NCBI GenBank assembly: GCA_015056565.1
Contig: SVGB01000012.1
Coordinates: forward strand, 1-64,000
Direction of reading: 5' to 3'
Length of the DNA stretch: 64,000 bases
Source: Butyrivibrio sp.
Lineage (GTDB): Bacteria; Bacillota; Clostridia; Lachnospirales; Lachnospiraceae
Position numbers and translations under genes: made by a program. Below are positions 38,345-56,453 of this stretch, in pieces. The number at the start of each line of letters is the position of its first letter. The stretch's first letter is position 1. The notes beneath the pieces were generated by a model. That model saw only the letters and a program-made list of their open reading frames with translations. It was not told the origin of the DNA and did not search any database.

Positions 38345-38456
38345 ATACCTAAAAAATCTCCTTAACCAAATATAGTCCCAGTGGGCTTTCCCACAATTAT
38401 TACAATTTTCGTAACACAATGGATAGTATAGCATAACTCCGCCATTTATCCAAGTA

Positions 38457-38524
38457 CAAGACACGGGGACGGTTCTACTGTCTCATTGCACACAATGAGA
38501 CAGTAGAACCGTCCCCGTGTCTTG
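38457..38524. repeat. Perfect 68-base palindrome of the REP family (inverted pair)
   Basis: The arms 38457-38488 and 38493-38524 are perfect inverted copies of 32 bases with a CACA loop. Each arm is one copy of the unit CAAGACACGGGGACGG / TTCTACTGTCTCATTG that is also found around the transposase gene at 55490-56233. It lies between the terminator of the oxidoreductase gene and the lipoprotein gene. Confidence 0.95.
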
Positions 38525-38543
38525 TCACCGTATCTTGTGCATG

Positions 38544-54375: not shown

Positions 54376-54440
54376 GACACGGGGACGGTTCTTCTGTCTC
54401 ATTGTGCACAACAAGTCACGGGGACGGTTCTTCTGTCTTC
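54376..54440 (+). repeat. Tandem pair of 39-base REP units after the DegV gene
   Basis: Two direct copies start at 54376 (GACACGGGGACGGTTCTT) and 54415 (GTCACGGGGACGGTTCTT), exactly 39 bases apart, joined by CATTGTGCACAACAA. The second copy stops after CTGTCTTC. They sit between the DegV stop and its terminator. Confidence 0.92.
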
Positions 54441-54451
54441 CTGGCAAAAAT

Positions 54452-54501
54452 ATCCCTTGTTTTTCGAGGCTACATTGCAGTCTCGTCACAAGGGATTTTT
54501 A
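54452..54501 (+). terminator. Terminator downstream of the DegV gene
   Basis: ATCCCTTGT (54452-54460) pairs with ACAAGGGAT (54488-54496), with an inner CGAG/CTCG stem, followed by TTTTATTG. It is flanked on both sides by REP units. Confidence 0.75.
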
Positions 54502-54510
54502 TTGTTGTAA

Positions 54511-54534
54511 GACAAAAGAACCGTCCCCGTGTGT
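54511..54534 (-). repeat. Single inverted REP unit upstream of the SIMPL gene
   Basis: GACAAAAGAACCGTCCCC then GTGTGT is the reverse complement of the unit at 54376, with TTTTG in place of TTCTG. With the pair at 54376-54440 it brackets the terminator as an inverted arrangement. Confidence 0.85.
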
Positions 54535-54582
54535 TATGTTATAATTGTCGTGAAAGTTTTTAGCTATAGGAGGAAAGAAAGT

Positions 54583-55332
54583 ATGGAAAACAAGAAAACT
54601 GGGGTATGGGGAGCGCTGATCATTGGAATATGCGTACTGCTCAGTTGCATAGCGCTAGCTTTTGGACTATCGCATTTCAGATCCGAGAGCAGTCATACAA
54701 TATCTGCAACAGGTAGTGCCAGCGTTGATTTTGATGCGGACATCATTATCTGGAGAGGCTCATTTAGTGCGGTCGATTATAGTTCTCAGGCAGCCTACGC
54801 CAAGATCAAATCTGATGCTGATGAAGTAAAGAAGTACCTTACCAATAACAGTATTGCTGAGGATGAAATCGTATTTAGCGCAGTAGACATTAGAAGAACA
54901 TATAGAGATGTATATGATGCTAATGGCAATTACGTAGGTCAGGAAGAAGATGGTTATAAGCTTACCCAGAGCGTAACTGTATCTTCCAAGAACATCGCTA
55001 CCGTAGAGAAAATCTCTAGAGACATTTCAAGTCTTCTTGACAGAGGCGTAGAACTTGAGTCTGACTATCCCGAGTACTACTACTCAGCTCTAGACGAGCT
55101 TAAGCTTGACCTTATAGACAAGGCATCACAGAATGCAAAAGAGAGAATTGACATCATTGCCAAGAACTCCGGAGCAAGACTTGGCAAACTCAAAAACTCT
55201 AGTCTTGGAGTATTCCAGATAACAGCGCAGAATTCAGGCACAAGCAGCTATTCCTATGACGGTGCATTTGATACAAGCTCTCAGCATAAAACAGCAACAA
55301 TAACTGTCAAATTGGAATACGACCTTAAGTAA
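54583..55332 (+). CDS. SIMPL (DUF541) domain protein, membrane-anchored
   Basis: A 249-residue protein with an N-terminal membrane helix (about 9-30, GALIIGICVLLSCIALAFGL) and an outside SIMPL domain. It shows SHTISATGSASVDFDADII, the long helix AYAKIKSDADEVKKYL, the GYKLTQSVTVSS strand and the second helix IDKASQNAKERIDIIAKNSG with GKLKNSS after it. SIMPL proteins are poorly understood; some oligomerise or affect surface or stress traits. The ATG at 54583 has TAGGAGGAAAG ahead. The gene and its terminator lie between two clusters of REP units. Confidence 0.88.
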   Translation: MENKKTGVWGALIIGICVLLSCIALAFGLSHFRSESSHTISATGSASVDFDADIIIWRGSFSAVDYSSQAAYAKIKSDADEVKKYLTNNSIAEDEIVFSAVDIRRTYRDVYDANGNYVGQEEDGYKLTQSVTVSSKNIATVEKISRDISSLLDRGVELESDYPEYYYSALDELKLDLIDKASQNAKERIDIIAKNSGARLGKLKNSSLGVFQITAQNSGTSSYSYDGAFDTSSQHKTATITVKLEYDLK

Positions 55333-55410: not shown

Positions 55411-55417
55411 TCCATAA

Positions 55418-55485
55418 GACACGGGGACGGTTCTTCTGTCTCATTGTGCACAACAAGACACGGGGACGGTTCTTCTGTCTCATTT
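55418..55485 (+). repeat. Tandem pair of 39-base REP units, left flank of the transposase gene
   Basis: Copies start at 55418 and 55457 (GACACGGGGACGGTTCTT each), 39 bases apart, with CTGTCTCATTGTGCACAACA between. The second copy ends four bases before the transposase stop codon at 55490. Confidence 0.95.
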
Positions 55486-55489
55486 GAAA

Positions 55490-56233
55490 CTACTTTCCTG
55501 CATTCTGAACAATATTTCGCCCGATTCCTGTAAGTCGTTCAATCTGTCGTACTGTCAATCCGCATTTCTTGAGTTTTATAATTGCTTCATTTCTTTCCTG
55601 CATATTATAGTTCTGCAAAACTGTTCCACTAGATATACCCAGACATCTCATCATTATCTCTTTTGCACTAGAATCACTGTGCCAGGTCTCAGAGTACTCA
55701 AGCCCCTGATCATCCTCTTTTTGCTCAATATATTCTCTATACTGATTAAAATCTCCCAAAACTGCCTTCACTGCTGATAAATCCATATATGGAAGCGGCT
55801 TGTCATAAAACCAAAAGCTGTTCCAGGGATATCGAGCCACACTGCATATTCCCGCTTTTTCCGGATTCTTTAAAATATAGCGAAATGCTGTCAAAAGATA
55901 TTTTTCGTTTTCTATTGGTTCGCTCTTATATCTATCTTGAAAAAGATGCCCTACCCGATCATATTTTTTATTGTAATACCACGAATAACTTACACCTATT
56001 TTCTTCATCAAAAGAGCTATATCTTCAGAATCCCCTTTTACTAGCAGATGGACATGATTATCCATCAAACAATATGCGCTGATGCTAACCTCTGTATCCA
56101 TGCAGTATTGTTCTAGTTTCTTCAGGTAATACCTATAATCGAATTCATCCTCAAACAGCAGTTGTTTTCCTATCCCTCTGACAATTACGTGCATATAACC
56201 TGATGCACTCTTGTTTCGCGCTTGACGCGGCAT
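55490..56233 (-). CDS. REP-associated tyrosine transposase (RAYT, Y1_Tnp/IS200-like)
   Basis: A single-strand-DNA HUH nuclease of 247 residues. It begins MPRQARNKSASGYMHVIVRG, the usual RAYT opening. The HUH motif is DNHVHLLVKG (His60, His62). The catalytic tyrosine is most likely Tyr119 in FRYILKNPEKAG. The region VGHLFQDRYKSEPIE between them is also typical. The C-terminal 40 residues (KLKKCGLTVRQIERLTGIGR) form a helix-turn-helix as in several Firmicute RAYTs. The reading frame is intact and AGGAGGTAA precedes the ATG, so it is probably functional. Unlike IS200 elements it is single-copy in the window and has no separate accessory gene. Confidence 0.93.
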   Translation of the reverse strand: MPRQARNKSASGYMHVIVRGIGKQLLFEDEFDYRYYLKKLEQYCMDTEVSISAYCLMDNHVHLLVKGDSEDIALLMKKIGVSYSWYYNKKYDRVGHLFQDRYKSEPIENEKYLLTAFRYILKNPEKAGICSVARYPWNSFWFYDKPLPYMDLSAVKAVLGDFNQYREYIEQKEDDQGLEYSETWHSDSSAKEIMMRCLGISSGTVLQNYNMQERNEAIIKLKKCGLTVRQIERLTGIGRNIVQNAGK

Positions 56234-56286
56234 TAATTTACCTCCTATATAAAACTACTCTTCTTAAAAATGAGTGGAAACACAAC

Positions 56287-56349
56287 CAAATAGAAAACTC
56301 TATTTAGTCTTCCCCAGAGCGGGGAGTGATTTAAGTCCAGAAATGGACT
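56287..56349 (-). other. Three consecutive small hairpins upstream of the transposase gene
   Basis: Within 63 bases there are AAATAGA/TCTATTT (56288-56305), CCCC/GGGG with loop AGAGC (56312-56324) and AGTCC/GGACT with loop AGAAAT (56334-56349). On the minus strand they would lie in the leader of the transposase mRNA or between it and its REP flank. They may be a folded leader or a diverged end of the element. The rest of 56234-56501 holds REP units and a terminator. Confidence 0.4.
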
Positions 56350-56377
56350 ATAACATGGAAAACATAATTTGTAAAGC

Positions 56378-56453
56378 AGACAGTAGAACCGTCCCTGTGT
56401 CTTGTTGTGCACAATGAGACAGTAGAACCGTCCCCGTGTCTTGTCCCCGTGTC
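56378..56453 (-). repeat. Inverted tandem pair of 39-base REP units, right flank of the transposase gene
   Basis: In reverse orientation to 55418-55485: GTGTC ends lie at 56401 and 56440, exactly 39 bases apart, and the cores read CAGTAGAACCGTCCC. A third partial copy (TCCCCGTGTC) follows. The core is the TTCTACTG type, as at 38457-38524, while the left flank is the TTCTTCTG type. Confidence 0.95.

Follow-up and report, generated by a model that had tools for sequence, protein, structure and literature searches.

A chromosomal RAYT/TIRYT-type tyrosine transposase in Butyrivibrio and the hairpin repeat family that it probably mobilises

An intact tyrosine transposase gene framed by inverted pairs of a short repeat raises the question of whether gene and repeat belong together and, if they do, to which kind of system. 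The locus lies in the window, meaning here the whole 64,000-nucleotide stretch of Butyrivibrio DNA that was analysed, and had originally been predicted to be a REPtron. The layout is indeed REPtron-like, but the system is not of the GTAG kind known from Gammaproteobacteria and appears to fit TIRYT, or TnpA_Y1 subclass 2.1. Repeat and transposase form a real pair, which belongs with TIRYT/REPIN systems and not with GTAG REPtrons in a Lachnospiraceae host, and we regard it as probable that this is a chromosomal RAYT/TIRYT-type tyrosine transposase together with the repeat family that it mobilises. Gene and repeat show a cognate association, the repeats occur as doublets that nest within one another, their two arms change in concert, and they differ between close relatives.

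The gene (Table 1) was predicted to encode an intact RAYT with HUH and YILKNP motifs, and this is borne out: its frame has no internal stop, and the HUH residues H60 and H62 and Y119 of YILKNP are invariant across 36 aligned homologues. The protein has a Y1 HUH fold of the RAYT kind with the catalytic HUH and Tyr residues, and fold comparison with a model of the protein places it nearest to 4er8, the E. coli RAYT-REP complex. The NCBIfam profile REP_Tyr_transpos scores 53.5 bits, under its cut-off of 80; a PDB sequence search gave nothing useful, and PHROGs gave no match. The motifs NHVH, FQ and Y--NP and a length near 238 aa, by which subclass 2.1 is recognised, are all found, and by these motifs and its length the protein appears to fit TIRYT / TnpA_Y1 subclass 2.1. 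Of the HTH-like C-terminal domains named for the subclass (Bac_DnaA_C, HTH_23 and HTH_28), HTH_23 gives a weak match at residues 217-244 (E 0.18, below the cut-off), and helices are present in the model. The genome holds two RAYT-like genes, mutually 34% identical and each with its own flanking core. The second lies at the edge of a phosphatase-like gene, and the corresponding stretch of the close relative G330, a different species, shows no such element. Contigs C26, C18, C14 and C8 of the genome carry further Y1 transposases, three IS200-like genes and one fragment.

Table 1. Positions of the transposase genes and repeat units (window coordinates unless a contig is named)
Feature	Position	Strand	Remarks
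RAYT/TIRYT-type Y1 HUH transposase	55490..56233	-	247 aa; C-terminal helices resembling HTH
Left outer repeat unit	55416..55454	+	39 nt; core 55423-55434; palindrome-centre sequence TTGTGCACAA
Left inner repeat unit	55455..55484	+	core 55462-55473; 5 nt from transposase stop codon
Right inner repeat unit	56378..56403	-	core 56385-56396 with one mismatch; ~145 nt upstream of start codon
Right outer repeat unit	56414..56445	-	core 56424-56435
Second 39-base tandem pair of type-1 units	54376..54438	+	cores 54381 and 54420
Core of inverted unit	54517..54528	-	with 54420 encloses terminator-like hairpin
Complete REPIN-like palindrome	38456..38525	.	cores 38465 (+) and 38505 (-); G330 without counterpart at site
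Second RAYT-like gene	C44:12384-13136		34% identical; flanked by type-2 core GGGGACGGGGTTAGTGG

The four units around the gene form, as predicted, two direct copies on the left facing two inverted copies on the right, with cores 39 bases apart in each pair and the whole array running from 55416 to near 56445. The left cores read TTCTTCTG and the right cores TTCTACTG; at up to two mismatches, the window contains 13 core matches against 1.87 expected (maximum of 100 shuffles, 7). The second tandem pair, at 54376-54438, is nearly identical to the left pair flanking the transposase gene. The 39-base period itself, which had been put forward as a property of the unit, is local: three of 26 same-orientation neighbour pairs in 0.70 Mb of this genome have it (55423/55462, 56385/56424 and 54381/54420), all in the window, and 22 of the 26 lie 20-27 apart, so that a genome-wide period was rejected. 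The suggestion that the two ends are distinct subtypes holds for this locus, where left and right cores differ, but the difference is lineage-specific. At the G330 transposase locus the left pair is a single unit and both inner ends read ACTG, which means that lineages differ in how many repeat copies and which end subtypes they have; inner ends also match each other in G372, and distinct subtypes were rejected as a conserved design. Local conversion is likely, given these matching inner ends and the resemblance of the left pair to that at 54376-54438. The GTGCAC motif, proposed as a palindromic folding point, is the centre (hairpin tip) of one class of these palindromes. The palindrome at 38456-38525 folds to -65.6 kcal/mol as RNA. 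The facing pair of units around the terminator-like hairpin (54420-54528), seen in G330 too, is among the few pairs with differing arms.

At transposase genes, the unit consists of a 5' half-stem, 0-3 bases, the core GGGGACGG with a variable tail, and a 3' half-stem. The half-stems covary as pairs between loci (AAGACA/TGTCTT, AGCCA/TGGCT, GAGTCA/TGACTC and GAGCCC/GGGCTC), and for the first unit, compared at 43 of 54 loci, the mean longest stem is 5.5 versus 3.8 with partners shuffled, a value reached by 0 of 3000 shuffles that did not keep relatedness. The corresponding figures are 5.45 versus 3.72 for the 31 distinct 5' stems, and 5.2 versus 3.7 for the second unit of each locus (41 of the 54 loci). 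Single units fold weakly as DNA, with six of seven strands at z -0.87 to 0.56 and one at -2.45. The conserved core sits in the loop of this short, covarying stem. None of the 43 flanking units compared combines a stable hairpin with a GT[AG]G foot, and a GTAG REP reading was rejected on this ground and on that of the weak single-unit folds.

A genome-wide search for the core, which had been proposed as a check of copy number, returned many copies: GGGGACGGTTCT occurs 180 times exactly versus once for the backwards pattern, and 214 versus 15 times at up to one mismatch. Counting both cognate types, 180 type-1 and 26 type-2 cores are dispersed in the genome. Inverted doublets (GGGACGGTT, 22-52 bases, AACCGTCCC) number 63 in the whole genome versus 0 in the control; like REPINs, they pair two inverted units and could fold into one long hairpin. 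In 0.70 Mb of this genome, 134 units make up 61 clusters, of which 31 have the commonest form, '+-', seven are symmetric '++--' and seven single '+'. Crude ORF calling puts 50 of 52 clusters between genes; 22 of the 48 with both neighbours lie between convergent genes and two between divergent ones, and the median distance to a stop codon is 24 nt. Contigs C1, C2, C5, C10, C27 and C35 start or finish in these palindromes, which suggests that the assembly breaks there and probably underestimates the copy numbers. An inverted-repeat element of 0.7-0.8 kb with type-1 ends was also seen, at non-corresponding sites, in this genome (C13:31377-32107) and in G330 (C5:85379-86206); the two copies are 86% identical over 566 nt, have no RAYT gene, and are possibly a cargo-bearing or MITE-like form.

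The two arms of a doublet, defined here by an inner +- pair no more than 110 bases across (present in 42 of 61 clusters in this genome, 24 of 44 in G330), are far more alike than arms permuted between doublets. Over 20 nt, a comparison in which one further doublet per genome was dropped by core length, the 41 doublets of this genome have 0 mismatches despite 14 different arms (permuted mean 1.66), and the 23 of G330 have a mean arm mismatch of 0.35 versus 2.19 permuted. The choice of matches makes the first 12 nt of the arms near-constant, and the position that carries information is the variable dinucleotide following TTCT: its two copies agree in 41 of 42 doublets here (14.8 expected) and in 22 of 24 in G330 (7.1 expected). 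Beyond the core, arm likeness in this genome is 0.65, 0.50 and 0.44 in the 10-nt bins after the first, versus ~0.28 permuted; arms remain alike 30-40 nt past the core because further unit shells surround the inner pair. In the stretches compared, type-2 cores lie within type-1 shells at three sites in this genome (C22:224223, C22:286180 and C13:119747) and at five in G330 (C10:73209, C12:48631, C13:35498, C13:57216 and C15:6399), and a type-1 core inside a type-2 shell was seen in neither. The variable dinucleotide of the shell varies between copies of these hybrid palindromes and is equal on both arms in those displayed. We infer that the shell is older than its core, which would make such a site a record of relative age.

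Variation between relatives, another check proposed with the original prediction, was found when repeat sites of this genome were set beside those of G330. Flanks were long enough in 54 of the 61 clusters, and 21 were matched to a counterpart in 1.63 Mb of G330. The same inner palindrome is present at six of these 21 sites, at two of them with the loop turned round, and a different one at four; at one site (C28:88886) an identical change of five bases affects both arms; two further sites are the transposase flanks, with two copies versus one of the 39-base unit and a 13-base deletion; at five, G330 lacks a doublet and shows nothing, another hairpin, or one unit that is single or truncated; the remaining three are ambiguous, one of them being a likely chance match. 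At C1:186222 the outer shell is common to both genomes and the core is type-1 here and type-2 in G330; C27:34605 is likewise type-1 here and type-2 there; C34:50843 carries a nested REPIN here and a 0.8 kb inverted-repeat element in G330; and the inner palindromes at C7:94099 differ. Base-exact empty sites were sought in G330 and G326 and not found, the flanks being too diverged; excision, transposition, binding and cleavage were likewise not observed, and mobilisation is inferred.

Among the 54 transposase loci, SIMPL and glucosidase neighbours occur only here, in G330 and in G372. In G326, which has no match to the protein, the SIMPL and glucosidase genes adjoin, with ~95 bases between their matches, and the element of ~1 kb therefore looks inserted. 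The SIMPL gene (54529-55332) has in this genome and G330 the orientation opposite to that in G372 and G326, and repeats lie at both breakpoints in this genome; the inversion was likely repeat-mediated, this being the pattern expected of recombination between inverted repeats.

Gene and repeat also go together across genomes, which were called repeat-rich when they had at least 10 exact cores (79 genus and 299 family genomes; these counts and the phylum tally were made by hand from tables). In the genus, a full-length type-1 gene, defined by a cut-off of E 4.3e-52 or better that was set after the matches were seen, is present in 14 of 18 repeat-rich genomes versus 3 of 61 others (p 1.4e-9, uncorrected for shared ancestry); when any match is counted (E 1e-5), the figures are 15 of 18 versus 11 of 61. 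In the family, any match is found in 13 of 17 repeat-rich genomes versus 47 of 282 others (p 3.4e-7, likewise uncorrected for shared ancestry). The repeat is thus scarce in most relatives that lack a full-length gene, in line with expectation, and the exceptions are four of the 18 repeat-rich genus genomes without a full-length type-1 match (G311, which has a partial match, G333, G339 and G348) and four of the 17 family genomes without any transposase match (G009, G039, G261 and G285); some of these are incomplete assemblies, and repeats can persist after a gene is lost, either of which may be the reason. The reverse case, a gene with few cores, is seen in G373 (1), G329 (5) and G322 (0). The near relative G326, without a match to the protein, has one exact core; it also has an IS200-like transposase and a Y1 fragment, and IS200-like transposases are unlikely to be sufficient drivers. 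The core is not confined to Lachnospiraceae, as a family-specific version would have been: counting cores alone, 58 of 398 genomes of the phylum, from 27 families, have at least 10 exact copies, with a control maximum of 3 per genome.

The type of unit follows the type of transposase across relatives. In G310 and G322 the core beside the relative is a GTTTC variant, GGGGACGTTTC, whose presence beside the G310 transposase predicts amplification in that genome; the prediction held, with 157 copies in G310, and the variant is absent from 70 of 79 genus genomes, this one included. In G322 there are two copies, both flanking, and G308, G348, G371, G318 and G338 have 21, 13, 7, 5 and 4 copies, a gene with GGGGACGTTTC flanks being found in none of these five. 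In 13 of 79 genus genomes the type-2 core is abundant (at least 10 copies of GGGGACGGGGTTAGTGG with no more than one mismatch); the type-2 gene is present in 8 of these 13 versus 2 of the 66 others (p 1.9e-6, ancestry uncorrected), leaving five in which the cores are abundant without it. On a tree of 54 transposases, 49 with an assigned core, six of the core types having been set by hand, and five loci without a recognised unit left out, core type changes 8 times, versus a mean of 22 and a minimum of 15 in 300 shuffles; the tree was built quickly, and 23 of its 51 inner branches are open.

TIRYT/TIRtron probably corresponds to TnpA_Y1 subclass 2.1, which is Bertels's RAYT group 1 in Table 1 of Quentin et al. 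(PMC6006769); in that table it is the commonest non-IS200 subclass, at 14.9%. In Quentin et al., 2018 (PMC6006769) most TIRYTs fall in subclass 2.1, near whose members no REP-like sequences are reported. Di Nocera et al., 2013 (PMC3733652) describe TIRs with GGGGWSAS in common, some families being moderately abundant and occurring as dimers or clusters; they also report three species in which REP dimers are inserted in palindromes, and they state that gene and repeat family are not obviously correlated. The present system shares with this group, so described, a Y1 HUH protein of ~240 aa with NHVH, FQ, Y--NP and a C-terminal extension, encoded between inverted repeats with a GGGG-type core, and units dispersed singly, as dimers or in groups; the core GGGGACGG differs from GGGGWSAS at position 7, whereas the GGGACAG of 3 of the 49 assigned relatives fits. 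What differs from those descriptions, and constitutes the advance here, is strong gene-repeat coupling in one genus, amplified doublets, units with the core in a loop, and layered palindromes. Compared with Gammaproteobacterial REPIN-RAYT systems and REPtrons, as far as the accounts considered go, there is no GTAG foot, the protein is of another subclass, and perfect shells and cores of two cognate types share one site. Compensatory changes and REPINs in or next to REPINs are reported from Pseudomonas in the pertinent passages of Bertels and Rainey, 2011 (PMC3116915), and these features are therefore not new by themselves. Unlike IS200/IS605 elements (IS608, ISDra2), the system has no near-identical multicopy gene, having two relatives that are 34% identical, and its ends are inverted, not asymmetric, and accompanied by a population of doublets. 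The view that such a system is little described holds insofar as literature searches, chiefly of freely accessible papers, gave no earlier account: RAYT, REPIN and Firmicutes returned nothing, repetitive extragenic palindromes and Lachnospiraceae only papers listed on unrelated matters, and the core as letters, among the matches listed, only unrelated subjects by title. The recurrence of the flanking repeat at many other sites, often as near-perfect nested hairpins, suggests a little-described mobile hairpin system.

Several other explanations deserve consideration. A classical REPtron, in which a GTAG-type RAYT and ordinary REPs have come to occupy a new host, would account for the fold shared with the E. 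coli RAYT, the inverted units at the gene and the dispersed REPIN-like doublets. However, it is very unlikely in view of the 43 flanking units without a GT[AG]G foot, the core lying between half-stems, the weak single-unit folds, and a protein with FQ, a longer C-terminus and HTH-like helices. That the repeats are instead host regulatory or terminator palindromes under selection, among which the transposase merely happens to lie, is what the position of the clusters would suggest, 50 of 52 being intergenic, often between convergent genes and a median of 24 nt from a stop codon; yet copy number and core type track the transposase, sites differ between close relatives, and G326, a near relative, has one exact core, all of which makes this reading unlikely.

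The RAYT element might also be one passenger among MITEs of another transposase family with similar ends, as the RAYT-less 0.7-0.8 kb inverted-repeat element with these ends in both genomes and the repeats in some genomes without a RAYT match would allow, but the ends lie at similar short distances around the RAYT genes of many relatives and covary with them, and we consider such an origin improbable. As for palindromes made or expanded by short-read assembly, several contigs do end in repeats; most listed doublets, however, lie inside contigs with unique flanks, six inner palindromes are common to the separate G330 assembly, and counts are also high in near-complete genomes, so that an artefact is extremely unlikely.

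If, as we favour, the transposase mobilises the repeats, the protein would bind the single-stranded unit when this is folded into a weak hairpin, recognising GGGGACGG in the loop, perhaps with help from its HTH-like C-terminal part, and would nick beside the unit through Y119. Doublets could then move as single-stranded hairpins, perhaps at the lagging strand, and an extruded palindrome would expose its tip, such that later doublets insert into the middle of earlier ones and give rise to shells and cores. Two routes to identical arms can be envisaged: copying of one arm from the other within a snap-back hairpin, formed by the DNA that is moved or repaired, or ordinary hairpin-templated correction.

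These cognate protein-motif pairs make the substrate of subclass 2.1, which the relevant parts of Quentin et al. (PMC6006769) leave open, a testable matter. Nested palindromes, in which the shell would be the older part, offer a relative-age record for the study of how palindromic repeats grow, and the symmetry of their arms is relevant to the maintenance of perfect palindromes. Finally, it is conceivable, though we put it forward only tentatively, that Bacillota have a phylum-wide REPIN system of their own, in which subclass-2.1 transposases would read GGGGACGG in a hairpin loop, a snap-back single-strand intermediate would rewrite both arms, and extruded tips would be targeted, so that repeats of two cognate transposases, terminators and longer cargo may come to be nested within one another.
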